From assembly GCA_947625305.1 (NCBI GenBank), contig CANQNW010000016.1:1-40687 (forward strand): a DNA stretch of 40,687 nucleotides, written 5' to 3'. Under the pieces are notes generated by a model, which was not told the DNA's origin, ran no database searches, and was given only the letters and a program-made list of their open reading frames with translations. Shown here piece by piece: positions 5,810 through 39,500 of this stretch. The position numbers and the translations under genes are program-made. How positions within the stretch are numbered: position 1 is the first letter of the stretch; each line of letters begins with the position of its first letter. This stretch comes from Candidatus Gastranaerophilales bacterium (GTDB taxonomy: Bacteria > Cyanobacteriota > Vampirovibrionia > Gastranaerophilales > Gastranaerophilaceae).

Positions 5810-6133
5810 TTATTTCTTATTTTCTATAATCGCAGAGGCAACCGAGGTGATAAGTAAAACAGGAGCAAATACCCACTTAAAATTGTTTTTTACCGCATCT
5901 TTTAAAGGTACTTTCCTTATAAGATTATCAACAGCAGTAAACCCGCCCGTCAGCAAAAGCAGAAAAGGCGCTCTGTCTATTGCGTTTCTTACAAAAGAAT
6001 CTCCAAATTGACTTATTTTAGAAGTATTTTCATTGGGAACATTTGGGTTTTTCCCTTTAAAAGTACTCACCCCGCCGTGAATTAAATTACCTCCGCGAAA
6101 TGCCGATTCACCGAATGATACCTTTTTAATCAT
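5810..6133 (-). CDS. Small membrane protein (107 aa), lineage-restricted
   Basis: I do not recognise a family. The N-terminal half is polar and Gly/Asn-rich (begins MIKKVSFGESAFRGGN, then VSTFKGKNPN). Two hydrophobic segments follow, around 54-70 (APFLLLLTGGFTAVDNLI) and 87-103 (WVFAPVLLITSVASAII), and the tail is ENKK. It overlaps the end of ribD by 8 bases, suggesting translational coupling, with AAGGGG about 14 bases upstream. The short SFG/TFKG words near the start resemble those of other small proteins in this window (see findings). It is probably an inner-membrane protein of unknown function. Confidence 0.7.
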   Translation of the reverse strand: MIKKVSFGESAFRGGNLIHGGVSTFKGKNPNVPNENTSKISQFGDSFVRNAIDRAPFLLLLTGGFTAVDNLIRKVPLKDAVKNNFKWVFAPVLLITSVASAIIENKK

Positions 6134-21797: not shown

Positions 21798-22460
21798 ATG
21801 GATTTATCACAATATATAGAACACACTCTTTTAAAACAGGATGCAACAAAAGAAGAATTAATAAAACTGTTTGATGAGGCTAAAAAATACCATTTTAAAG
21901 GTGTTTGTGTAAACAGTTCCAATGTGGAATTTGCAAAAGAATATCTTGAAAACAGCGGAATTAAAATAGTAAGTGTAGTAGGATTTCCTTTAGGCGCATG
22001 CCTGAGTGAAGTTAAAGCATTTGAGGCTCAAAAAGCAATAGAACTTGGTGCTGATGAAATAGATATGGTTATATCCGTTCAATCAATAAAAGATAAAGAT
22101 TTCGGCTATACTCTAAAAGATGTTCAAACCGTAAAACAAGCTTGCAGAGATATTCCTCTAAAGGTTATTATAGAAACCGATTTACTTACAAAAGATGAAA
22201 TAGAAAAAGCCTGCAAAATAATAAAACTATCGGGTGCTGACTATGCAAAAACTTCAACGGGATTTGTTAAAAACGGAGCGGGCGCAAAAGTTGAAGATAT
22301 AAAATTAATGCACGAAATTTTAAAGGATTCTGATGTTAAGATAAAAGCCTCAGGCGGGATAAAAACATATGAAAAAGCAGTTGAACTTATTAATGCGGGA
22401 GCATCAAGACTTGGTACAAGTTCAGGGGTGCAATTGGTCGAAAATTCTAATAACCTATAA
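21798..22460 (+). CDS. deoC: Deoxyribose-phosphate aldolase
   Basis: Splits 2-deoxyribose-5-phosphate into glyceraldehyde-3-phosphate and acetaldehyde in deoxynucleoside breakdown. The 220-residue class I aldolase has the expected TIM-barrel motifs: IEHTLLKQDATKEE at the start, EIDMVIS (87-93), VIIETDLL (123-130), the Schiff-base lysine in YAKTSTGF (Lys151), and the second conserved lysine in IKASGGIK (Lys183). It starts two bases after the recO stop, with AAGG upstream. No other nucleoside catabolism gene is nearby. Its last 14 bases overlap the end of the convergent 99-aa gene. Confidence 0.95.
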   Translation: MDLSQYIEHTLLKQDATKEELIKLFDEAKKYHFKGVCVNSSNVEFAKEYLENSGIKIVSVVGFPLGACLSEVKAFEAQKAIELGADEIDMVISVQSIKDKDFGYTLKDVQTVKQACRDIPLKVIIETDLLTKDEIEKACKIIKLSGADYAKTSTGFVKNGAGAKVEDIKLMHEILKDSDVKIKASGGIKTYEKAVELINAGASRLGTSSGVQLVENSNNL

Positions 22461-22746
22461 ACGGTTTTACACTTAAATCCTTTTTAGGAGCAAGTAATTT
22501 TGACTTTCTTATCTGCCTTAAATTAAATAACTCAATTTTCTTATATTTACCTGCTCTTTTCATTGCAAAATAAATAACGGAAAGGTTTAACGCAACAAAA
22601 ATACACTCAGCTATTGTTCTTTTAGTTCTTTTTATAAGTTCATCATTACTGTTATTTTTATTAAAAATAATTGATTTTTTTTGTTCAAGAATATTGGAAC
22701 AAAAAGCAAGATTATTACAACCGTTATTTATAGTGTTGATTTGCAT
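22447..22746 (-). CDS. Small membrane protein (99 aa), end of the lineage-specific block
   Basis: Unrecognised. It begins MQINTINNGCNNLAFCSN and has one hydrophobic segment (about 66-83, IAECIFVALNLSVIYFAM) followed by strongly basic residues (KRAGKYKK). The expected topology places the Lys/Arg-rich tail inside the cell. AGG lies six bases before the ATG, supporting the start. It follows the GH13 gene by 10 bases and is the last of four genes transcribed together. Its 3' end overlaps deoC, but the coding-like composition, the ribosome binding site and the tight spacing argue that it is real. Confidence 0.6.
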   Translation of the reverse strand: MQINTINNGCNNLAFCSNILEQKKSIIFNKNNSNDELIKRTKRTIAECIFVALNLSVIYFAMKRAGKYKKIELFNLRQIRKSKLLAPKKDLSVKPFIGY

Positions 22747-22756
22747 AAGAGACCTG

Positions 22757-24496
22757 TTATTTTTGTTTCGATACTTTTAAACCCGATTTTTCAATATTAG
22801 GTGTATTTATTTCAAATAAATGAATTCTGCCCGGCCCAAGATCGGTAATAATTTGACCGTCAGAAACCTGAAATTCGCTTTTATCACCATATGACATAAA
22901 TAAATTATTTAATTTTTGGTCAGCACTCAAGCCGGGGATATTAATAATACCTGATTGTCTTGCGTTAACATCTCTGTTTGCTATAACAAGCAAAGTCTTA
23001 CCGTTCAAATGTCTTGCAAATGCAATGATTTGATCATTTCCGTTTTTATCAACGGTTAAAGGAATGAAAGAACCTTTTGTTAAAATTTTATGATATTTTT
23101 CATTATTTCTTACATCGAGTGTATTTTTCATGAAAACACCGCATTCGGGGTGGTTCCCGATTAAAGGTCTTGAGAAATTAAATATATCGGGTTTTCCTTT
23201 ATGAACATCACAATTATTAGTATCCGTATCAGTTTCATTATCTTGTCCATCTTGGAAGTCATATATATAATCATCACCTGATTGATATCCGTCAAAGTAA
23301 TAAGGATTTAACATCGGTAATGTTGCTTGAAGACCTGAAACAAGGTTTGTAAAAGTAACACCGCCATGGTTCATTATTGAAATATCATCGTGAGTGCCGA
23401 ATGAGCCGATTAAAGATTTGCCCGAATTTAAGTTTTGGGACATATTTAAGTTTTCATTAACATAATCATATAATTCATGAGCACTTGTCCATTCATTAAA
23501 GATATGATATTGGCCATAGTAGCTGTCAAATCCTGCTCTTAGTGAATCTTCGGGTCTGTCATAATCCATATTTAATTGAGGAGATGCATCTTCATAAGTA
23601 TAACTTTCTGCAAGCCAAGCAAATTCGGGGTCTAATTTTCTTGAATAAGTTATTAAGTTATCCCAGAATTCCGTCGGTTTAGTTCTTGCAACATCGCTTC
23701 TTATACCGTCAACACCTAATTCAACGCACATATCAACGAAGTCTTTGTGCATTTTAAATAATTCATGATTTAATTCTCTTTTAGTTTCGTCCTGCCAAGG
23801 ATTAAACATTCTGATATCATCCCAGCCGCCGGGGGTCTTAGGAGTACCGTCTTTTTCAACTGCCATTAACTCGGGTCTTGCCAAATATAAATCATAAGAT
23901 GCGCAGCTTGGTAAATCAAGCATTACACTAATACCTCTTTTATGGCATTCGTTTATAAAGTTTTTAAATTCTTCTTTTACTGTTCTCGGGTCATTTTTAT
24001 CGTCTAAAGCAGGGTCTATCTGTAAAAAGTCCTTTGGCGCATAAACAGAACCTGCTGTTCCTTTCGCATTCATTTTACCCGGAGGATTTACAGGCAGTAC
24101 ATGCAGTGTATTTACACCTAAATTCTTTAATTCATCCAGCCTTTCAACCGCATTATTAAAGTTTCCTCTGATATCACCGTCTCTTAAAAGCTGATTGCCC
24201 GTTTTATCCTTTGCACCAAAACTTCTCATAATTATACCCATTATAACGGCATCATTATTCTGAAATTTTGTTCTTAAATTATTTTTGTATTCCTGAACTC
24301 CGTTATTATTTGCCTGATTAATTCCTGCAGCTGCATTTACACCTTGACTGTGAAGAAATTTTTCAAGAACATTTGTTCCTTTTGGTTCTGCTTCTTTTTG
24401 AACATTAACAGCCGAAGCAACACAATTGACCTGTTGTACCTGATTTGGCAGGGGTTGTGCAATTTTATTCAGATATAATTTTAAATAGTTAGCCAT
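22757..24496 (-). CDS. GH13-family alpha-amylase-like enzyme with atypical region I
   Basis: A 579-residue glycoside hydrolase family 13 protein acting on alpha-glucans or transferring glucose units. After an Asn/Gln-rich leader of about 75 residues, the barrel starts at DAVIMGIIMRSF. Catalytic residues are present: Asp268 in GIRSDVAR (nucleophile), Glu297 in WLAESY (acid/base), and Asp370 in GTHDD (transition-state stabiliser). Conserved region I reads VMLDLPSCAS (191-200) instead of the usual D-x-V-x-N-H, so the normal Asn and His are replaced. The C-terminal beta domain (about 470-560) includes LVIANRDVNARQ. There is no signal peptide, so it should be cytoplasmic. Its first 8 bases overlap the 867-aa membrane gene upstream. 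An intracellular glycogen-degrading or branching role, alongside glgC elsewhere in the window, is an inference. Confidence 0.85.
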   Translation of the reverse strand: MANYLKLYLNKIAQPLPNQVQQVNCVASAVNVQKEAEPKGTNVLEKFLHSQGVNAAAGINQANNNGVQEYKNNLRTKFQNNDAVIMGIIMRSFGAKDKTGNQLLRDGDIRGNFNNAVERLDELKNLGVNTLHVLPVNPPGKMNAKGTAGSVYAPKDFLQIDPALDDKNDPRTVKEEFKNFINECHKRGISVMLDLPSCASYDLYLARPELMAVEKDGTPKTPGGWDDIRMFNPWQDETKRELNHELFKMHKDFVDMCVELGVDGIRSDVARTKPTEFWDNLITYSRKLDPEFAWLAESYTYEDASPQLNMDYDRPEDSLRAGFDSYYGQYHIFNEWTSAHELYDYVNENLNMSQNLNSGKSLIGSFGTHDDISIMNHGGVTFTNLVSGLQATLPMLNPYYFDGYQSGDDYIYDFQDGQDNETDTDTNNCDVHKGKPDIFNFSRPLIGNHPECGVFMKNTLDVRNNEKYHKILTKGSFIPLTVDKNGNDQIIAFARHLNGKTLLVIANRDVNARQSGIINIPGLSADQKLNNLFMSYGDKSEFQVSDGQIITDLGPGRIHLFEINTPNIEKSGLKVSKQK

Positions 24497-27092
24497 TTTG
24501 TTTGTTCTTTTCCAATTCTTTTTCTATTTTACTTTTTCTTCCTATAAAAAGCCCTGCAATAAGTGTAATACCAAGAATTACTGCCATTGCAATACCGAAG
24601 GTTTTAAGCCATTTTCTTGAATTATACATTTTTTCGGCTGTTTCTTTCACAAGGTCTTTTACCGGTTTACCGATAAGATTACTTCTTTCAACAGCATTTG
24701 CGTTCTCTGTTCCTGTTGCATTAAAAGATATCCTGTTTGACAGTTCGGGGGTGATTGTATTTTTCCAATCCCAAACTTTAGTCTTTAAATCTTTTAAATA
24801 AGCATTAAAGCCTTTAAGTCCTTCTTTTCCGCCTTGAGGTTTTGTTAAAAGAATTACATCATCTGCTTTATCAAATAAAACCTCTGATATTATACGATAT
24901 TCATCTGCCGTAATATTAAATTTAGAAGTTGTGAATTTTTCAACATAATCTGTAGGAGTAGCCTCCATAAGCATTTTTTTAATAATTTCTGACAATCTGT
25001 TTACTGTTTCTGTATCTACTTCCGTATCTGCTTTTAGATTTTTAATTTTCCTGAATGCCATTCTGATTTTATCGTCAAGTTGTGCTTTATTAGCCGGATT
25101 TAATATATCTATTGTTTGAATTAATCTGTACAATGATGATTTAGTACCTAAAGCTCTTTCTGCCGCCATTAAGTTAACAGTGTTTTCAACAGTGCCTCTT
25201 TTTGAAGCATATAATGCTTGTTTTATTGCGTGAATAGTATTATAACCAAATTTCTTTTCTTCTTCTTCTATTAATGGAGTTTCTTTTAGAAGTTTCAAAG
25301 CTCCTTTAATATCATCTGCATTTACTTTGTTTTTAAATTCTTCTATTAATTTAGCAGCAGTTTCTTTAGCTATTTTGTTATTTTCACAGAACTTACTGAT
25401 TAAATCAGAAGCATTATCAATTCCACTTTCGCCTATTTCTTTAAAAATATTTTCGGATAATGCTTTGAAATCGTCGCCTTTTATATTTTTAACAGCATCT
25501 CTGCCGATAGTTCTCATATTTTTTTCAACTGTAGCAAGAAAATCTTTTCCTGCTTTTGATTCATAATCATCCATAAGGTTAAGTAAATCCTTCAATAAAG
25601 AGTCTACCGTATTTTTACCTTTAGAATCAGATAATTTCTGAAGTTTTTCGAAGAAGATTTGCATATTGCCGTTTTGTAATTCCATAAGATCTTTTTCGCT
25701 GAATTTTAAAGTCTTAAAGAGTTTTTTACAAGTTCTGCCCCACTGATTAGCTATATAAGTACCTGCTTTATCACCAACTCTGGCATTAATATATTCGTCA
25801 ACAACTATTTTTTTGGATTCAAAATCTTTTAATATTTTATTTAAAGATTTAATTTTTGATGAAATATCTTCTAAAGTTACTGCTTTAGGTTCAAATTTTC
25901 CTGCTAATCTGCTTTGTATTTCTCTTAATTTTTGTTGTTTTTGAGGTCTGTTTAAACGTTGAGAATTAGAAAGCAACGTAACTAACCTGCTTGCAGCTTC
26001 ATTAGATTTTCCTGTTGCCAATAAATCAGTAATATATTCTTTTTCCATATTTGAGAATGAAGAAATAAAGTTATCAGGAACAACATCTTTTAACATATCC
26101 GATAAAGAATTAATATCTACTGGAACTTTTGTTTGAGCTTTTTTAGTTAAATTTTTTAATATGTCTTTAACGGTTCTTGATAAATCAGCGGAATTAGCAT
26201 CGGGTAAAAGTCCGTTTGCTATTTTATCAAGCATTACTTCATTTACTTCATTTCCTGCATTTTGTTTAAGATATTTCATTAAAGCTTTTTCTTTTGATGT
26301 GGTACGGAATTTATTTATTAATGTACTGAATGTTCCTGATAATTTACCTTCTTGAATAGCTTTTTGTGTTGATTTAAGGGCGGATTTTTCAAATGCTTCA
26401 TTAATAGGTGTTTCAAGTGCATTACAAGCTAAAGCGCTCATAACTGGGCTTGCAAATCCTGCAGACAGCATCCATAAAGTATTACCTTGTATTGCTGTTT
26501 TCTTTGCTCTTTGCTTAATAAAATTATCACGGTCGGGAAGATTTTCGCTAACTTTAAGTTTTTTGCCTATTCTGTCTAAATCTTCTCTTGAATATAAATC
26601 GGTTAAATCGTACTGCGGGTCAAGGAAGAGATTCTTTTTACGACCTTGAGAATCTATATATTTTTGATGAATATCAACACCTGTTCTTGCTTTAATCGGT
26701 GCCTGAAGTGCTATTTTCGGCCATAAAGCCATTGAACCCAAGAATGTTCCCATTCCGACAAATTCCATTGACTTGCTCAATTTAAGCGGATTTTTCACGA
26801 ATAAATAAGAGGCTATTGCAAGCGATCCGAGTTTTAAAGCTATATCATTTATTCTGCCGAGTTCATGGTCGTTTGATTGTCCGTTTGCCGCACGGCCTAT
26901 ATTTACTATATCTTTTTTAATATCTTTTACATATTCTATCGGAGAACCGAAAATTCTTGAAGGAAGTAATCTGCCTTTATCCTCCAAGGGTTTAATTTTT
27001 CCTTTCGTATCTATTGTATATGTATGTTTATAAACAGGCGAAGGATTATATATTTTTTGATTAGAACTATATGTTTCAAGTAAATTTGTCAT
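24489..27092 (-). CDS. Large membrane protein of unknown function (867 aa)
   Basis: No family recognised. The N-terminal 230 residues contain three hydrophobic segments (about 86-104, 111-131, 205-227). The middle (about 235-830) is long, charged and predicted mostly helical, with repeated Leu/Lys/Glu patterns but no catalytic motif. A C-terminal helix (about 839-858, GIAMAVILGITLIAGLFIG) is followed by a lysine-rich tail. Residues 130-227 align in order with the upstream 359-aa protein: QAPIKARTGVD with ELPVKWKHGID, DRIGKKLKV with DKVAKKMHL, then a hydrophobic segment ending in ALE/PFE. The two genes thus share a module, and this one has gained a 600-residue extension. It begins one base after the preceding stop, and its end overlaps the GH13 gene by 8 bases. 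Confidence 0.8.
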   Translation of the reverse strand: MTNLLETYSSNQKIYNPSPVYKHTYTIDTKGKIKPLEDKGRLLPSRIFGSPIEYVKDIKKDIVNIGRAANGQSNDHELGRINDIALKLGSLAIASYLFVKNPLKLSKSMEFVGMGTFLGSMALWPKIALQAPIKARTGVDIHQKYIDSQGRKKNLFLDPQYDLTDLYSREDLDRIGKKLKVSENLPDRDNFIKQRAKKTAIQGNTLWMLSAGFASPVMSALACNALETPINEAFEKSALKSTQKAIQEGKLSGTFSTLINKFRTTSKEKALMKYLKQNAGNEVNEVMLDKIANGLLPDANSADLSRTVKDILKNLTKKAQTKVPVDINSLSDMLKDVVPDNFISSFSNMEKEYITDLLATGKSNEAASRLVTLLSNSQRLNRPQKQQKLREIQSRLAGKFEPKAVTLEDISSKIKSLNKILKDFESKKIVVDEYINARVGDKAGTYIANQWGRTCKKLFKTLKFSEKDLMELQNGNMQIFFEKLQKLSDSKGKNTVDSLLKDLLNLMDDYESKAGKDFLATVEKNMRTIGRDAVKNIKGDDFKALSENIFKEIGESGIDNASDLISKFCENNKIAKETAAKLIEEFKNKVNADDIKGALKLLKETPLIEEEEKKFGYNTIHAIKQALYASKRGTVENTVNLMAAERALGTKSSLYRLIQTIDILNPANKAQLDDKIRMAFRKIKNLKADTEVDTETVNRLSEIIKKMLMEATPTDYVEKFTTSKFNITADEYRIISEVLFDKADDVILLTKPQGGKEGLKGFNAYLKDLKTKVWDWKNTITPELSNRISFNATGTENANAVERSNLIGKPVKDLVKETAEKMYNSRKWLKTFGIAMAVILGITLIAGLFIGRKSKIEKELEKNKQNG

Positions 27093-27093
27093 A

Positions 27094-28173
27094 TTAACAT
27101 ACTACCTTTTCTTTAGTTTCATCAATTAATGATACTGCTGCCTGATTTTTTGACCCCTTATCTTTATTAAAGTCAAAAAGTGTTTTAAAATTGCCTAATA
27201 AAGTTACACCAATTGCAGCACCTAACAAAATTCTTCCTGCTATTTTACAATTTTTGCTGCTATTATTGACGAAGGACTTGCAGCTTTCAATAAATCTTTT
27301 TGAGAATAACTTAACAAATTGTAACGGATTTCTAATGCCATAATCCAATTTTAACTTTTCGGGGATTAAAGAAATTCTTTCAAAAGGTTCTTGCATTGCA
27401 ACACCCACACCAACAGCAGCCCATAAATATGATGCTAATGTTGAGAATAATTTTGTTTGTATTATTTTTTCTCTTATTTTTGGTTTTACTTTTTGGTCAG
27501 AGGATGTTAAATCGCCGGTATCAAGGTGCATTTTTTTAGCAACTTTGTCATAATAAGCATTTCTGTCGTCTCCATAGTTTTTATTATCATAAAATAAATC
27601 CCATCTCGGAAATTCAACACTTTCATATGCTTTATGATATTCGTATTTTACTAAGTTTTTATTATTACCGTCTTCGGGCAATTCGTTTATTTTTTGTTTA
27701 AACGGAAGATTTACATCAATTCCGTGTTTCCATTTTACGGGGAGTTCAATTAATTTCTTTGAGAAAGTCTTGGCAAGACCGTAAAATAATACTCCTAATG
27801 CCATTTTTTGCCCATGTTTTAATGATTTTGTAAATGCTTCTGTTTTAAAATACTTTGAGGCATAATTAAATACAGCTATTAACATTGCACTGCCGGTTAA
27901 ATAAGGTACTGTTCCCATGGTTAAGAATTCATAAAAATTAGCATTTTTACTGCCTTTTAATCCTTTTTTAGGGTAAACGGTAAATGCTTTTGCCAATTTA
28001 TCTGCTTGGATTTTTGCACCCGTTAATAAAGGATGTTTTTTTCTTTCCTCTACCATTAAATATGCATTATTTACAAATGTTTTTTCTTTTTTGTCCTCTG
28101 TATCCTTTTTTTTAGCAAAAGAAACCGAATTTGCAAATTGATTATTATTTTGTATTCCTAACTGATAAACCAT
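27094..28173 (-). CDS. Membrane protein of unknown function (359 aa), first gene of the block
   Basis: Not recognised as a known family. It opens with an Asn-rich segment containing SVSFAKKK (16-23). Hydrophobic segments lie around 82-105 (FLTMGTVPYLTGSAMLIAVFNYA), 123-137, 245-261 (TLASYLWAAVGVGVAMQ) and 311-327 (KIAGRILLGAAIGVTLLG). The 143-265 region is homologous in order and spacing to residues 130-227 of the downstream 867-aa protein. The C-terminal Cys is the last residue and is not a lipobox. GAGGT lies four bases before the ATG. A possible -10 box, TATAAT (28204-28199, minus strand), precedes it in the 247-base divergent region shared with the zinc-ribbon gene. It is tightly linked to the three genes after it. 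Confidence 0.8.
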   Translation of the reverse strand: MVYQLGIQNNNQFANSVSFAKKKDTEDKKEKTFVNNAYLMVEERKKHPLLTGAKIQADKLAKAFTVYPKKGLKGSKNANFYEFLTMGTVPYLTGSAMLIAVFNYASKYFKTEAFTKSLKHGQKMALGVLFYGLAKTFSKKLIELPVKWKHGIDVNLPFKQKINELPEDGNNKNLVKYEYHKAYESVEFPRWDLFYDNKNYGDDRNAYYDKVAKKMHLDTGDLTSSDQKVKPKIREKIIQTKLFSTLASYLWAAVGVGVAMQEPFERISLIPEKLKLDYGIRNPLQFVKLFSKRFIESCKSFVNNSSKNCKIAGRILLGAAIGVTLLGNFKTLFDFNKDKGSKNQAAVSLIDETKEKVVC

Positions 28174-30107: not shown

Positions 30108-31175
30108 ATGAAAAAAAATCATTATCAGGGATTAATAAATAAATATAGAGAATATCTTCCCGTATCGGATTCAACCCCGATAATTACTTTAAATGAAGGG
30201 AATACTCCTTTAATAAAAGCCGATAATTTAGCAAAAAAAATAGGTTTAAAAGGTAATGTTTATTTAAAATATGAAGGAGCAAATCCTACGGGCAGTTTTA
30301 AAGACAGAGGCATGACAATGGCTGTTACAAAAGCCGTTGAAGATGGTTCTAAAGCTATTATTTGCGCCTCAACAGGCAACACAAGCGCCGCTGCTGCAGC
30401 TTACGGCGCAAAAGCAGGTGTCAGAGTTTTTGTTTTAATTCCTGACGGTTATATTGCGCTTGGAAAACTTTCTCAAGCAATGATGTACGGCGCTGAGATT
30501 ATTGCTATTCAAGGCAATTTTGATGAAGCGCTTGAAATGGTTATTGAAATCTCCAAAAATTCGCCCATTACATTAGTAAATTCGGTAAACCCTTACAGAA
30601 TTGAAGGTCAAAAAACAGGTGCTTTTGAAATTATAGAAGCTTTGGGTGATGCTCCTGATTATCATTTTATACCCGTAGGTAATGCAGGTAACATAACTGC
30701 CTACTTTAAAGGTTATGAAGAATTCTTTAATCTTCAAAAATGTACACAGCTTCCAAAAATGATGGGATATGAAGCAGAAGGTGCTGCCGCAATAGTTAGA
30801 GGTGAAAGAATTTTGCATCCTGAAACCATTGCAACGGCAATAAGAATAGGAAATCCTGCAAGCTGGAAACAGGCTGAAAGAGCAAGAGATTTATCAAATG
30901 GCAGAATTGACTGTGTAACGGATGAAGAAATTATTGAAGCATATAAACTTATGGCATCAACGGAGGGCATTTTAGCCGAACCGGGAAGTGCTGCTTCCGT
31001 TGCCGGCTTAATTAAAGCTAATAAAATGGGACTTATTAAAAAGGATTCAACATCTGTTTGTATTTTAACGGGTAACGGCTTAAAGGATCCTGATAGCGCA
31101 ATAAAATACGCAGGCGCTCAAGTTAAAAGAACCAAAGCGGATTTACATGAAATTCTTAATATAATTAACTTATAA
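30108..31175 (+). CDS. thrC: Threonine synthase
   Basis: A PLP enzyme that converts O-phosphohomoserine to threonine. The 355 residues correspond to the shorter type. The PLP lysine is Lys65 in GSFKDRGMT. The substrate and phosphate loops are visible in [31 protein letters not shown] and [15 protein letters not shown]. An ideal AGGAGG lies before the ATG. It is the second gene of the hom-thrC unit. Its 3' end overlaps the convergent tolC-like gene by six bases, so there is no room for an intrinsic terminator after it. Confidence 0.96.
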
Positions 31176-32840
31176 TAAATCCACATCCGATGTATTTAAC
31201 GGCACACCCATTAACTTTTCAAGATTTGCGGCAGATACATGGTAATTTAACAGTGTATTATAATAATCAAGCTGGGAATTTCTGTAGGTTGTTTCCGCAT
31301 CTTTAAGTTCTATTGCATCACCCAGACCAACCTTATATCTGCCTGAGGCTTGGTCATACTGCTCTTTTGCCTGATCCATTGATAGTTTTGCTACTGCTAT
31401 ACTTTCTTGAGCGGTTGTCATATTCAAATATGCCTGTTTAACCTCAAAATATATGGTTTGTTTTGTATTTTCATAATCCGCAAGGTCTTTTTTGTATGTA
31501 GCTTTTGCCTCATCAACCTGCTTTTTCAACTGCAGTAAATTAACCGTTTGATAGTTTAACTGCGCTCCGAATTGATACCCGTAATCGGTATCCATTCTTT
31601 TTCCGCCTCTTGAATAAGACGCAAACCCTGATAAATTAGGGGTAAATGCCCTTCTTGATGCTCGAACCAAAAGTTCAGATGCATCCGCTTTCTTTTTTGC
31701 CGCCAATAACTCGGGGCTTGTATCATATGCAGTATTTACGGCATCCTCTGCATTTATGTCATAAGCTTTTGTTGTTAAGTTATCAGTTACATCATAATCG
31801 GAATAATCAGGCATGCCCATTGCGTTGCTTAATTGTACATATGCGATCTTCAATGTATTTTTTGCCTGAAGCAGATTTAATTTAGCCCTTCCCAAATTAT
31901 GTTCCGCAGTTAGTACATCTATTTTTGCTTTTGTACCGATATCATAATATGCTTTTGCCTGTTCTAAGTGAAGTGTATAATCATTTACGGTATCTTCATA
32001 TACTTTTACCTGCTGTTGAGCAAAAAGCAAATTGTAATAAGCCTGTTTTACGGTAAATACGACGGTATTAATCGCTGTTTCAAGATTATATTTTGCGGAT
32101 TCATAGGTTCTTTTTGCTAAATCCGCCTGAGCCTTTGTTTTTCCGAAATCAAACAACAACATGTTGCCTGATACTGTCGGAGTATAGAACATATCATACA
32201 CTTGAGTGGGAAATGCAAAGTTTGATACCTGCATATCATTTCTTGAATAGCTTACTCCTGCCGAAAAAGTCGGGAAATAATTTGCCCAAGCCTGCGCTAT
32301 TTTACTTTTATATATCTCCGCATTACTCATTGCAGACTTAATTGCAGGATGATGTTCAAGCGCAAGTTTAACGCAATCATTAACTTCTATAATTTTATTT
32401 GTTTCAATACTGCCCTGATAAGCCGTATCTGTTAATACTTTTTCCGAATTTCCTTCAGAAACTGCCGGAATTTCTTTTAATTCAGTTTGTTTTTTCTTTT
32501 CCTGTTTTTTTTGTTTTTTAGCGAGTTTAGCTTTTTTCTTTTGTTCTTTTTGAACTTTTTCTATTGTTTTTATTTCTTCAATATCAGGCTTTTCTGCGTT
32601 TAATTCTTCAGCCTGTTCATTCTTTGTTTTTTTGTTTCTTACAAAGATATTCTTTAAAGACTTTTTACTTTTGGTTTTCTTTATCTCAACTGCATTTTGA
32701 GTTTGCTCCGTTGTTATTCTTGAAGGAAGTTCATTTATTATCTGAGGAATAATAATCTCATCCCTTATGGCATTTTCATCCTCCGCAAAAACAGGACTTG
32801 CCAATACTAATAATATAAATAACAATAATTTTTTATTCAT
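31170..32840 (-). CDS. TolC-family outer membrane efflux protein with charged N-terminal extension
   Basis: The outer-membrane channel of the RND system encoded just upstream. The start is placed at the ATG at 32840 because [19 protein letters not shown] is then a clean signal peptide. A longer in-frame start at 32909 would hide it and run back into the pump gene. The mature protein opens with about 110 residues that are very rich in Lys, Glu and Gln (for example [20 protein letters not shown]), unusual for this family. After that (about 150-550) come two outer-membrane efflux repeats with long helices ([55 protein letters not shown]) and the closing [27 protein letters not shown]. It follows the pump gene by 22 bases. 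Confidence 0.9.
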
Positions 32841-32862
32841 TTTTCCCACTCTACTCTTAAAA

Positions 32863-35800
32863 CTAATTATTTTCAGCTTTTTCTTTTTTCCTCTTTTCAA
32901 GATTTTCAACTAATGATTGAACAAGAACATAGAAAACAGGTGTTAAAATAGTACCTATGGTAGCAGCTGCCGTCATACCGCCGAATACCGTAGAACCGAC
33001 TGAAATTCTGCTCTGAGCGCCTGCACCGGTTGCAAATACCATCGGTAATACACCAAAGACAAATGCTAATGCAGTCATCATAATAGCTCTAAATCTTATT
33101 CTTGCAGCCTCTATTGCCGCCTCTTCTATGCTTAAACCTTTATTTTCATGTAAATCCTTTGCAAATTCAACAATTAAGATTGATTGTTTTGCCGCAATAC
33201 CGATTAGGGCTATCATACCAACCTGCGAATATAAGTCAAACGATTGACCCAGCATCATCTGGAATATTAAAGCACCTAATGCCGCAACTGGAGCGATTAA
33301 TAATACCGCAACAGGGATTGACCAGCTTTCGTACAATGCAACAAGGAACAAATATACGAAGGTTAAAGCAAGAGCAATTACTATACCTGTCTGCCCCGAG
33401 GATTCTCTTTCCTGAAGTGATGTACCTGACCAGTCATAGCCGACATCATGAGGCAGTGTTTTAACGGCAACATTTTCCATTGCCTTCATTGCCTCGCCTG
33501 AACTTTTCCCTGAAGCAGGCTGGCCTGAGAATTGTACACTTCTATACTGGTTAAACCTTGTAATGGAAGCTGCCCCAACTCTCTGCTCCAAGCTTATCAT
33601 CGTCATTAAAGGAACCATTTGACCGTTCATATTTTTTACATATATCTTTTCCAAATCGGTTGCTTTATTTCTGAAATCATCTTCTGCCTGTAATTGAACC
33701 CTGAATACACGGCCTAATTTATTGAAGTCATTAACATAATATGAACCTAAAGTTGAAGCCATTGTTGAATATAACTCCTGTATATTAACATTTTGCGCTA
33801 AAACTTTATCGTAATCAATATTTAATCTGTACTGAGGAACATTTGCCTGATATGTAGTATAAACACTGCTTAACGAAGGGTCTGTATTTGCCGCCATTGT
33901 TAATTGACCTGCAAATTTTTCAATATCCTGCAGAGAATGTTCGCCTTTTGAAAGCATTTGGAACTCAAATCCGCCCAGCATACTCATACCTGATATTGCA
34001 GGCGGTGAAAAGGCTGCTATTGATGCCTCATTTATTGTTGCTATTCTTGCTCTCAATTCTTTTAATATTCCGTTATGGGATAAGTCGGTATTTTTGCCTT
34101 GAATTTTTCTTATTACCCAAGTCCAAGGATATACTTTTCTTTCTCCCCATTCTTTAAGCGGAATTACACAAAATGCCTGGTTTGTAGGGCCAATACCCGC
34201 AAAAGTAATAATTCTTTCAGGCACAACTCCGTCTATCTGCTTTACTTCGTCGGTAAGTTTTAGTAAAACTTCCTGTGTTTTATTTAAAGCTGAACCCGGC
34301 GGTAATACTATTTGCGCCATTAATACAGCTTGGTCTTCATCAGGGATAAATCCTGTCGGGATAACTTTGAACAAAAATCCCATTAACAGTATAAATCCCG
34401 CATACAAGCAAAGGGTTAATTTTTTATTATAAACAAACTTTTTAACAACACCTAAATACCAGTGCGTTACTTTATCAAATCTTTCATCAAAAGCCGTAAA
34501 GACCTTTTTAATAAATGCCGTAAATGCGTTAGACGGCTTTCTGTTAGGATCTTCGGGTCTTAAAATTATAGAACACATTGCAGGCGACAAGGTCAAAGCG
34601 CATATTGCGGATAATGCAATAGATACCGCAATACATACGGCGAATTGCCTGTACATTAAGCCCGATAATCCCGATATAAATGAAACGGGGACAAATACGG
34701 CCATCAAAACCATAGCCATTGCGACCAAAGCTCCGCCTACTTCCTGCATTGTGGCTTGAGTTGCCTCTATAGGAGTTTTTCCTTCTTCTAAGTGTCTTTT
34801 TACGTTTTCAATTACAACGATAGCATCATCAACTACTACCGCAACCGCCAGCACCATCGCAAACAACGTCAACAGGTTTATTGACATTCCAAACACAGGC
34901 AAGGCGGCAAATGTACCTATCAAAGAAACGGGTATTGTTACGCAAGGAACTAACGTCGCTCTCCAATCTCCCAAAAATACAAATATTACTAAAATTACGA
35001 TTAACGAGGTCATTAAAATCGTAAATACAACTTCCTTCATTGATTCACGAATGAACTTTGAATCATCGTGCATCATTTTTATTTCCAAGGATTCAGGGAG
35101 TGTCTTATTAATTTCTGCAACTTTTTTATTAACAAGATTTACGATATTAATTGTATTAGCACCCGGCAGAGGTACAACCTGAATAACCGCAACAGGCTTA
35201 CCGCCGATTAGACCCAGCTTATCATAGCTGTATGCACCGAGTTCTACTCTTGCTATATCTTTTATTCTGATACTTGAGCCGTCCCTGTTTGCTCTTACAA
35301 TAATATTTTCAAATTCTTCAGGCTCTATTAATCTGCCCTTCGTCATTAAAGTCATTCTTAAAGTTTGATTGGATTTACTCGGCAAAGCGCCCAATGCGCC
35401 TGATGAGACCTGAACATTCTGAGTTTGAATTGCCGCTTGAACTTCACTTACCGATACATTTAAGTTAGCCATTTTTTGGGGGTCTAACCAAATTCTCATA
35501 CTGTAATCGCCTGCGCCGAATACATTTACATCTCCGACACCATCCAAACGTTTAATTTCATCTTTAATATAAATCGTTCCGTAGTTAGTTAAATCCAGCT
35601 GGCTCCAAGAACCATCGTTAGAAACCAAGTCTAAAATACAGGCACCTGCACCTGCTACCCTATTTGTAGCAGTAACACCCAGCCTTTTTACATCCTCGGG
35701 CAGCAGCGGTTCTACCTGCTGGAGCCTGTTTTGCACGTTTACAAGGTTAATATCTTTATTAGTTCCGACTTTGAAATATATACTAAGCTGATATGATTCA

Positions 35801-36075
35801 TCATAACAGGTTGATGACATATACAGCATATTTTCAACACCGTTTACCTGAGATTCTATTAATGATGCAACCGAAGATTCAATAACTTCCGCACTTGCAC
35901 CGGGATATGATGCGGAAACTACTACCTGAGGCGGTGTAATGTTCGGATATTTTTCTAATTGCAATCCAAACATTGATACTATACCTATCAAAGTTATAAA
36001 AATCGATATAACCATAGCAAATCTTGGCTTGGTTATAAAGAAATATAAATTATTTTTCTTTTTATTATCTTCCAT
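32863..36075 (-). CDS. RND efflux transporter, HAE-1 family (AcrB-like)
   Basis: A 1070-residue inner-membrane proton/drug antiporter that captures hydrophobic compounds and passes them to the TolC channel. Twelve membrane helices and two large periplasmic loops are expected. The sequence starts [24 protein letters not shown] and continues [28 protein letters not shown], the classic family opening. Proton-relay residues are present: the Asp-Asp pair in [15 protein letters not shown] (about 409) and the lysine in [14 protein letters not shown]. The G-loop region and the [16 protein letters not shown] segment are also typical. It is preceded by the adaptor gene (12 bases) and followed by the TolC gene. 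Its substrates cannot be read from sequence. Confidence 0.96.
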
Positions 36076-36087
36076 TTTCTTTTCCCG

Positions 36088-37263
36088 TTATTTTGTTTGT
36101 GTTTGAGCTTGTGTTTCTTCTTCTAAAGGCTTAGCATTAACTTTTTGCCCCGGCATACGAATATTTTGTATACCTTTTGCTACTATTACATCATCTTGGG
36201 TTAAACCTTCTTCCACTACCCAATTTTTATTTATTTCATCAGATACTTTAATATCTTTTCTGACTGTTTTACCGTCATTATCTATACCCCATACATAGTA
36301 GCCCTGAGCATCATTTAATGCACAACTTTGAGGTACAAGCATTACAGTTCTCGGTTCATTTGATTTAACAATAACTTTTACAAAATCCCCGGGGACTAAC
36401 AGTTCATCAGCATTTTCAAAGGTTGCTCTTAAACTTATCGTACCTGTTGTTTCATCTACTTCGTTATCAACAAATTCTATTTTCCCCGTTTCATTGTAAA
36501 TACTTCCATCCGCAAGCTGAATGGTTACATTCATATTGCTAAAATCAGCCGAGGAATCAATTTTTCTGAATTTTAAAAATTCTGCGCTTTTTAAATTAAA
36601 ATATACATAAATAGGGCTGACACTTACTATTCTTGCTAACGGCCCGGATTGAGTATTAACCAGATTGCCTTCCGTAATTATTATTTTACCTATTTTCCCG
36701 TCAATAGGAGATGTTACTTTTGTATAACTCAAATTTAGCTTAGCATCCGCTAACTGCGCTCTTGCCGCATCCAGTGCCGCGCGGGTTCTGTCACGGGTTG
36801 CCAATGCCTCATCATAGTATGATTTACTTACATAATCTTTTTTTACAAGTTCTTTTGCCCTTGTAAGCTCCTTTTCCGCATTTGTATATGATGCCTGACT
36901 TTGTCTTACATTTGCTGCAGCATTATTAACAGCTATTTGATATTGATCGGGTTCAATTAAAAATAATGTTTGACCTTTTTTTATTTTTGCACCTTCATCA
37001 AAAAATCTTTTTTGGAGCCAGCCGTTTATCCTTGCAACTACATCAACAGAGTATTTTGCATCAATTCTTCCTGCCGATTCCGATTCCGAATAAATTTCTT
37101 GTACAACAGGTTTCATTGTTTGTACTTCTTTTGGGGCATTCATAGCCCTTTGCTGCATATATCCTGCCACCATTCCTGATAATTGGTGCCATAATATAGG
37201 TGCAATTATTATTACCACAAGCCATAATATCCATCTGTGTTTTTTATCTTTTAAGTATCCCAT
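36088..37263 (-). CDS. RND periplasmic adaptor (membrane fusion protein)
   Basis: Links the inner-membrane pump to the TolC channel. The 391-residue protein has one N-terminal membrane helix (about 12-30, ILWLVVIIIAPILWHQL) rather than a lipoprotein signal. A barrel-sandwich half with INGWLQKRFFDEGAKIKKGQTLFLIEPDQY comes next, then a helical hairpin (about 108-180). The other lipoyl half follows (KLNLSYTKVTSPIDGKIGKI), then the beta-barrel and membrane-proximal domains (GTISLRATFENADELLVPGDFVKV). The C-terminus is Gln/Thr-rich. GAGG lies seven bases before the ATG. It is the second gene of the marR-led operon. Confidence 0.95.
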   Translation of the reverse strand: MGYLKDKKHRWILWLVVIIIAPILWHQLSGMVAGYMQQRAMNAPKEVQTMKPVVQEIYSESESAGRIDAKYSVDVVARINGWLQKRFFDEGAKIKKGQTLFLIEPDQYQIAVNNAAANVRQSQASYTNAEKELTRAKELVKKDYVSKSYYDEALATRDRTRAALDAARAQLADAKLNLSYTKVTSPIDGKIGKIIITEGNLVNTQSGPLARIVSVSPIYVYFNLKSAEFLKFRKIDSSADFSNMNVTIQLADGSIYNETGKIEFVDNEVDETTGTISLRATFENADELLVPGDFVKVIVKSNEPRTVMLVPQSCALNDAQGYYVWGIDNDGKTVRKDIKVSDEINKNWVVEEGLTQDDVIVAKGIQNIRMPGQKVNAKPLEEETQAQTQTK

Positions 37264-37791: not shown

Positions 37792-38268
37792 TTATTTATG
37801 AAGTTTTTTCCTTAATTTTAAGTGTTTTTCCAATTCGCCTTTAAATGATTCTTCGTCTTGAGTCGCAACAGAATTTATTTCGTATTCAAAATCCAAATCT
37901 TTATCACTGATATATAACGTCGGAAAATGATTAATACGATATTTCTCAACCAGCTCTTTATTTTCAGGATAATCACAATTTACGACGGAAAAAGTAAAAT
38001 TTTTATTTAACTTTCTAGAAACTTCGCCGAAAATAGGCATAAATCTTCTGCAATATCCGCACCAATCTACATAAAACATTGCAACAACAGGTTTTTCAAT
38101 TTGGTTTAAATCAAAACCTCTTACTATTGATTCATTAGGGATTTCTATCGGTGCCTGAAGATTAGTCTGAGGTTCATAAGATTTATTATGATTAAAAATT
38201 AAATGAAAAAATATCCCCAGTCCGATTACTGCAACAATAAAAAGACCTATAAAAAACTTTTTCTTCAT
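37792..38268 (-). CDS. Membrane-anchored thioredoxin-like protein
   Basis: The 158 residues begin with a signal-anchor (about 5-24, FFIGLFIVAVIGLGIFFHLI), so the domain faces the periplasm. The thioredoxin fold (about 55-150) carries the active site WCGYC (Cys70, Cys73) and a cis-proline segment, NHFPTLYI. WCGYC resembles the CxYC-type reductant/oxidant proteins rather than cytoplasmic thioredoxin (WCGPC). A role in disulfide exchange or cytochrome and protein maturation is plausible but not shown. It overlaps the glgC stop by four bases (ATGA), so it is translated from the lepA-glgC transcript. The marR promoter lies just after its stop codon. Confidence 0.88.
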   Translation of the reverse strand: MKKKFFIGLFIVAVIGLGIFFHLIFNHNKSYEPQTNLQAPIEIPNESIVRGFDLNQIEKPVVAMFYVDWCGYCRRFMPIFGEVSRKLNKNFTFSVVNCDYPENKELVEKYRINHFPTLYISDKDLDFEYEINSVATQDEESFKGELEKHLKLRKKLHK

Positions 38269-39500
38269 AATTTTGCTCCTTTCGGTACTACAGTTATTCC
38301 GCCTTGCGATACAAGAAAACCTCTTGCCTTATCTTCATCAGGGTTTATACCTATTTTTGTATAAGGCGGAATATCTACATTTTTATCAATTATCGCTTTC
38401 CTAATTTCGGAATATCTTCCGACATTTACATTCTCCATTAAGATAGAATCCGTTACATTTGAAAAACTGTTAATTCTTACCTGCGGAGATAATACACATC
38501 TTGAAATGCTCCCGCCTGAAATTATACATCCCTCTGATACAAGTGAATTTGTTGCCATACCTACTCTGTCGCCTTCTTCCCAAAGGAATTTTGCAGGCGG
38601 TAAATTATAATTGTATGTTCTTAAAGGCCAATCTGTAGAATATAAATTTAATTCGGGTTCATAACTTAATAAATCCATATTTGCCTGCCAGTAGCTGTCT
38701 ATGCTTCCTACATCCCGCCAGTAACCTCTTTCTGAATCCGTCATGCCCGTATATTCGTTTTGAGAAAAGTCATATACAAAAATTCTTTTGCCTTCTTTTA
38801 ACATTTTAGGAATTATGTTTTTCCCGAAATCATGATTAGAATCAGGGTTTTTTGCATCTTCAATTACTTCTTCTGTTAGGTCAACGGTTTCAAAGATATA
38901 GTTTCCCATAGAAGCTAAGCACATATCGGGTCTATTTGGCATTGGTTTAGGCGGAGTTTGAGGTTTTTCCTGAAATCCCGTTAATCGCCATTCATCATCT
39001 ACTTCTATTATGCCAAATTCGCTTGCTTCTGATATCGGAATAGGTATTGCAGATATTGTTAATTGTGCATTTTGTTTTTTATGAAATCTCATCATTTGAG
39101 AGACGTCCATTCTGTAGATATGGTCACCGCCAAAAACACAAACGTGTTTGGGGTTTTCGTCTTTAATATGAGTTAAATTCTGATAAACGGCATCGGCAGT
39201 TCCTCTGTACCAGCTTCCGTCCGTACGCATTTGAGCAGGCACTAAATCTATATACTGACCTAATATAGGAGATACGGGCCAGCTTCTTGCTATATGCTGA
39301 TTTAGAGAATCCGATTTATATTGAGTAAGTATTTTAATTTTATAAAAACCCGAGTTAATGAAATTGTTAATAACAAAATCAATAATTCTGTACCTTCCGC
39401 CGAACGGTACAGCAGGTTTTGCTCTGTCACGAGTAAGGGGATAAAGTCTTTTACCTTCTCCTCCTGCTAATATCATAACAAGTGCCGTATCAAGAGCCAA
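38265..39500 (-). CDS. glgC: Glucose-1-phosphate adenylyltransferase
   Basis: Makes ADP-glucose from ATP and glucose-1-phosphate, the committed step of glycogen synthesis. The 411 residues are normal for the bacterial enzyme. The nucleotidyltransferase core has AGGEGKRLYPLTRDRAKPAVPFGG (12-35), RGTADAVYQN (99-108) and FGGDHIYRMD (123-132). The C-terminal left-handed beta-helix (about 300-400, VSEGCIISGGSISRCVLSPQVRI) is the allosteric/oligomer part. The start codon is TTG at 39500-39498, decided by a perfect AGGAGGT (39506-39512) five bases upstream. It begins 11 bases after lepA. With the GH13 gene at 22757-24496 it indicates glycogen storage, although glgA and glgB are not seen here. Confidence 0.95.
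   Translation of the reverse strand: MALDTALVMILAGGEGKRLYPLTRDRAKPAVPFGGRYRIIDFVINNFINSGFYKIKILTQYKSDSLNQHIARSWPVSPILGQYIDLVPAQMRTDGSWYRGTADAVYQNLTHIKDENPKHVCVFGGDHIYRMDVSQMMRFHKKQNAQLTISAIPIPISEASEFGIIEVDDEWRLTGFQEKPQTPPKPMPNRPDMCLASMGNYIFETVDLTEEVIEDAKNPDSNHDFGKNIIPKMLKEGKRIFVYDFSQNEYTGMTDSERGYWRDVGSIDSYWQANMDLLSYEPELNLYSTDWPLRTYNYNLPPAKFLWEEGDRVGMATNSLVSEGCIISGGSISRCVLSPQVRINSFSNVTDSILMENVNVGRYSEIRKAIIDKNVDIPPYTKIGINPDEDKARGFLVSQGGITVVPKGAKL

Follow-up and report, generated by a model that had tools for sequence, protein, structure and literature searches.

Organization of the locus

The window, i.e. the whole stretch of 40,687 nucleotides that was analyzed, corresponds to contig C16 of a Candidatus Gastranaerophilales genome (Melainabacteria) of 1.97 Mb; the named genomes closest to it are MAGs of the same order, obtained from animal guts. 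Two reading frames for membrane proteins lie next to each other on its minus strand. Gene A (27094..28173) encodes 359 amino acids and gene B (24489..27092) encodes 867; both were found exactly where the original prediction had placed them, with the start of B 1 nt past the stop codon of A. An enzyme of the GH13 (alpha-amylase) family with 579 amino acids is encoded directly after B (22757..24496, minus strand), the start of its gene and the stop of B sharing an overlap of 8 nt. The original prediction was correct about the A-B pair and missed this context: the GH13 gene adjoining B is a fixed third member of the arrangement and is fused to B in some genomes. Ten nucleotides past GH13, a lineage-specific fourth gene on the same strand (22447..22746) encodes a small protein of 99 amino acids with one hydrophobic segment. 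Similar small proteins (about 70-166 aa) trail GH13 in close relatives of the window's genome and in a few others, and such a gene was absent from most other genera compared. Elsewhere in the window, an RND efflux operon (TolC-like protein, permease, and adaptor) occupies positions 31170-37263, and GlgC is encoded further along (38265-39500).

Homology of A and B

A and B had been proposed to match in three collinear blocks. The BLASTP alignment of the two proteins alone passed through all three, at a borderline level (22.3 bits, E 0.041, 21% identity over 150 columns, A130-269 versus B117-239). Iterated HMM searches linked A to B at very low E-values, but these were discounted. Because iterated profiles absorb each other, only profiles built separately from A and from the N-termini of B, using homologues of other genera, were counted. 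Alignment of these two profiles with hhalign was significant (Prob 95.8, E 8.2e-9, 204 columns) and reached a score of 70, well over the controls: reversed B scored 27, 60 column shuffles at most 22.7, and 60 shuffles of ten-column blocks at most 36.3. Enlarged sets of 121 A and 116 B sequences gave Prob 96.6 and E 5.4e-10 over 201 columns, and ten loci belonging to a different order of the class gave Prob 98.5 and E 2.4e-15. Structure prediction with AlphaFold2 also bore out the proposed relationship (A, pLDDT 80.6 and pTM 0.75; B, pLDDT 82.4 and pTM 0.73). As judged by the order of secondary-structure elements, without superposition of coordinates, both modules consist of a helix, a helix, a long helix, two strands, a short helix, a helix, and a long helix. 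These elements are H48-64, H80-84/H89-108, H112-150, E157-164, E174-181, H191-194, H206-214, and H222-259 in A and H51-69, H75-100, H104-137, E144-146, E152-154, H163-166, H169-178, and H188-248 in B.

The E-value of 0.041 from pairwise BLASTP, taken alone, would leave room for mere convergence of hydrophobic helical proteins. With a profile score far above the shuffled and reversed controls, its repetition in another order, and a common element order that takes in two strands, convergence is scarcely credible. A and B are homologues with a common module some 200 residues long. The limits first given for it (A 143-265, B 130-227) were too narrow; according to the profile alignments and the predicted secondary structure, the module spans about residues 43-270 of A (27364..28047, minus strand) and about residues 29-244 of B (26361..27008, minus strand).

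Protein architecture

According to AlphaFold2 and hydropathy analysis, A consists of a disordered leader (residues 1-40), the module with three hydrophobic segments, a short linker, and a C-terminal hydrophobic helix. Hydropathy peaks were located at residues 84-102, 124-142, 242-260, and 315-333 of A and at 81-99, 111-129, 205-223, and 832-850 of B, and the fourth segment recurred in most of the A and B proteins examined. With mean values of 1.0-1.6, the segments of the module are moderately hydrophobic, and some of them may not span the membrane. In B, a helical domain of about residues 249-805 (24678..26348, minus strand) lies between hydrophobic segments 3 and 4, the latter being a strongly hydrophobic C-terminal anchor (residues 832-850, mean hydropathy 2.58; 24543..24599, minus strand). 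B looks like a version of A with a helical domain set between segments 3 and 4. This domain differs in length between lineages, and its median pairwise identity is 17% versus 36% for the module.

B had been thought to have gained both a large helical domain and a C-terminal anchor. The domain was confirmed. Because A has a fourth segment of its own (315-333), in a position corresponding to that of the anchor of B, the helical domain is probably all that B gained. Profiles of the two C-terminal anchors aligned with Prob 11-27 and E 0.0026-0.00066; one of 40 shuffles matched the real score in a first test and none of 50 in a second, and the global A-B alignment beat all 30 C-terminal shuffles. 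Homology of the anchors is suggestive only. Either B gained the helical domain or A lost it.

The long helices of the module (39 and 61 residues) and their moderate hydropathy would also suit a coat that covers a membrane or a storage granule, in which A, B, and GH13 would organize the granule surface; that GlgA and GlgC are encoded in the genome agrees with this. The strongly hydrophobic segment at the C-terminus of B, the recurrence of a fourth segment in the majority of the A and B proteins inspected, and the failure to match any granule-protein family speak against such a coat, and we consider it quite unlikely.

Relation to known protein families

Neither A nor B gave a match above cut-off in Pfam or NCBIfam or any match in PHROGs or PADLOC, and a sequence profile search of the PDB gave none. 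Comparison of the models with PDB structures gave no convincing counterpart either: the best Foldseek E-values (A 0.3, B 0.12) were at background level, as were the best VIA-align Z-scores (A 5.8, B 6.5), which do not by themselves prove the fold to be new. A phage origin was considered and dropped, as no match was found; the A model matched viral-protein folds at background level only. The searches of sequence collections support the suggestion that A and B are members of one hitherto undescribed membrane-protein family. Thus, two of the three cassette proteins fit no catalogued family, although the cassette is near universal in the order. A description of an A-B-GH13 cassette was not found in the literature covered, which left out most subscription journals.

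Conservation of the A-B-GH13 cassette

A was located immediately 5' of B on the same strand at 40 of 40 loci of a first set, with gaps of -16 to +6 nt, and in a further named set the two genes were adjacent at all 76 loci (-32 to +33 nt). In the first set, the contig extends far enough past B at 39 loci, and at each of them a GH13 gene comes next on the same strand; the same held for every such locus of the named set. The remaining neighbors differed from genus to genus in the first set. The commonest A-B spacing in the named set was +1 nt, and B and GH13 were often spaced by -8 or -4 nt; such near-zero spacing would be expected for translational coupling.

The genes also occur together across genomes. 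Within the order, 184 of 192 genomes encoded A, and A and B were found in the same 108 of 117 genomes of the family. The cassette GH13 or a GH13 relative was detected in 182 of the 184 genomes bearing A. Genomes lacking A yielded weak or paralogous GH13 matches or none, with the exception of one genome of 66% completeness (G132). The association of A, B, and GH13 is well supported, and we read the three as one functional cassette.

Occurrence beyond the order and fusion of B with GH13

A search of the phylum with the A profile, in which just one other family of the class was sampled, retrieved nothing outside the order. The family was first read as restricted to the order, a view that was overturned by a search of the class with the B profile. 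Among the matches listed were 13 further genomes from two families (f46 and f51), both belonging to a second order of the class. At ten loci from nine of these genomes, A, B, and GH13 were arranged in the same order, except that the contig of L235 stops before GH13. In three of the loci, B and GH13 form a single reading frame (L237, 986 aa; L239, 1082 aa; L240, 1030 aa), with GH13 placed past the C-terminal hydrophobic segment of B. The three fusions form one clade and so may go back to a single event. Unfused B proteins of that order comprise 502-604 amino acids, indicating a shorter helical domain there. One genome (G402) holds two complete cassettes, one fused (L237) and one unfused (L241). 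A very large, divergent reading frame of 1278-1444 aa was seen directly upstream of A at four loci of the other order (L234:11019-15353, L237:4092-7928, L239:3452-7534, and L240:3345-7412).

The three genes might simply be co-transcribed without physical association of their products, A and B serving in an unrelated membrane role. Adjacency and spacing would be equally expected then, and no complex would be required. Order and near-zero spacing hold across orders, however, the genes have almost always been lost together, and some genomes carry B and GH13 as a fusion, which makes mere co-transcription improbable. In a small genome, near fixation, joint inheritance, and partial fusion of a cassette suggest that its function is central.

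Age of the duplication

A tree of 78 modules resolved A and B as two clades with support of 100/100, and the same two clades were obtained, again at 100/100, in a second module tree that included another order of the class. Since the clades are separate in both orders, the duplication dates from the split of these orders or from an earlier time, in line with the idea that A and B are ancient tandem duplicates. In the genome of the window, a combined profile search returned A and B as sole members. Distance matrices were compared for four parts (A, B module, B domain, and GH13) and correlated with coefficients of 0.82-0.90 (A-B module, 0.83; A-GH13, 0.90), against at most 0.28 in a shuffled null. 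Correlated distances of this kind are to be expected under joint inheritance.

The GH13 enzyme

The cassette enzyme belongs to GH13 by its score against Pfam PF00128 (30.6 bits, cut-off 22). Its catalytic residues Asp268 (region II), Glu297 (region III), and Asp370 (region IV) were kept in 110 of 110 cassette sequences. The Asn-His pair that ends region I is typical of most GH13 subfamilies, without being absolute. The cassette enzyme lacks it: the His position is taken by Cys198 in all 110 sequences and by Ala in the fused proteins that were read. This His is near-universal in GH13 (PMC11239784), and activity or specificity may be altered by its replacement. Immediately before the nucleophile, 67 of the 110 sequences have Ala, 38 have Ser, 3 have Val, and 2 have Ile.

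The best PDB sequence matches were 3dhu (E 3.9e-18) and 4gkl (E 6.6e-17), the latter of which we take to be AmyB, the maltogenic amylase of Thermotoga neapolitana. With GH13_48, the subfamily of T. neapolitana AmyB (PMC11239784), the cassette enzyme has the catalytic Asp/Glu/Asp and GxRxD in common. It differs in lacking the region-I NH pair, in reading THD rather than NHD in region IV, and in carrying Ala or Ser before the nucleophile, where GH13_48 has Cys; Cys occurs there in 81% of GH13_48 and GH13_49 together (PMC11239784). Unlike AmyB, it also sits with two membrane proteins, to one of which, B, it is fused in some genomes. By E-value, the top NCBIfam match was haloarchaeal MalA (NF041321, 9e-14), yet the score of 50.8 bits was far from the cut-off of 875. 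Two features given for GH13_49, Cys before the nucleophile and Asp before the general acid (PMC11239784), are both absent. On these sequence features, the cassette enzyme should be filed neither in GH13_48 nor in GH13_49.

No signal peptide was seen in the cassette GH13 of the window, and 39 cassette GH13 proteins that were checked were devoid of a strong hydrophobic signal or segment. A second GH13 of the same genome (L185:8104-9651, contig C12), 41% identical to the cassette enzyme, begins with a signal-peptide-like stretch and stands apart, with no A or B neighbors. Extracytoplasmic use of GH13 is thus probable in this lineage. This paralogue, together with the adjacency of two multi-segment membrane proteins to a glucan enzyme, could be taken to mean that A and B form a device for export or surface assembly, with an extracytoplasmic GH13 that, for example, makes or trims a surface alpha-glucan. 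The cassette enzyme, however, lacks the signal peptide that its paralogue appears to have, and neither A nor B matched a known transporter or channel fold. In the fusions, moreover, GH13 follows four segments and would be cytoplasmic, given an uncleaved cytoplasmic N-terminus and provided that all four cross. We regard an export device as unlikely.

Proposed role of the cassette

We consider it fairly probable that A and B form a two-paralogue membrane scaffold that holds an alpha-glucan-active GH13, probably at the cytoplasmic face. According to this proposal, A and B would assemble via their shared module into a scaffold in the inner membrane. The extra helical domain of B and its C-terminal end would bear or display GH13, a catalytically competent enzyme that would act on alpha-glucan, probably the glycogen-type polymer of the cell itself. 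A heteromer of A and B is the simplest reading because of their old paralogy and fixed adjacency. B and GH13 are likely to associate physically, given that their genes are closely spaced, are lost together, and are fused in some genomes. The lack of a signal peptide together with four segments would place the N-terminus and the GH13 end both in the cytoplasm if all four segments cross. GlgC is accompanied by GlgA, encoded elsewhere in the genome, so ADP-glucose-derived alpha-glucan is probably made. From enzyme family and genome content we infer the substrate; the physical A-B complex and the cytoplasmic side are likewise deduced.

The scaffold would give an enzyme of alpha-glucan metabolism a membrane platform of its own, and with three genes in one operon the complex is testable. 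Members of this order, which is abundant in the gut, are known almost solely from genomes.

N-terminal motifs

The motif N[LIVM][LIVM]xx[YFK][LIVM] was observed in 42 of 116 B proteins, within the N-terminal 20 residues, and in 76 of 110 GH13 proteins, within the N-terminal 60. It was present in 2 of 370 proteins of the window's own genome, drawn from about 400 kb of that genome, and in 1 of 243 other neighbors. The motif was found by eye and post hoc, and the counts pool related sequences. A stricter test with a position-specific scoring matrix from GH13 only was weaker: 33 of 116 B proteins, and 7 of 40 one-per-genus representatives, lay above 99% of the background. The stretch may be a docking peptide. 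A further-reaching and rather doubtful extension of the scaffold proposal would make A and B the core of a membrane platform of new type and new fold in these non-photosynthetic relatives of cyanobacteria, localizing alpha-glucan metabolism at the membrane via short N-terminal docking peptides common to B and GH13.

Another motif, resembling [VI][ST]F[KG][GA], was noticed near the N-terminus of several unrelated proteins, among them A (at residue 19). The others are encoded at 5810-6133 and 22447-22746 of the window and at L193:4550-6451, L201:6672-7688, and L205:14313-14963. Its strict form occurred in 4 of 396 N-termini versus 3 of 3518 internal windows. Phe19 of A was invariant in 63 sequences; the rest of the leader is variable and disordered. 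Finally, two near-identical proteins of 116 amino acids with signal-peptide-like starts are encoded about 2.4 kb apart in the window's own genome (L192:2728-3078 and L192:5127-5477).
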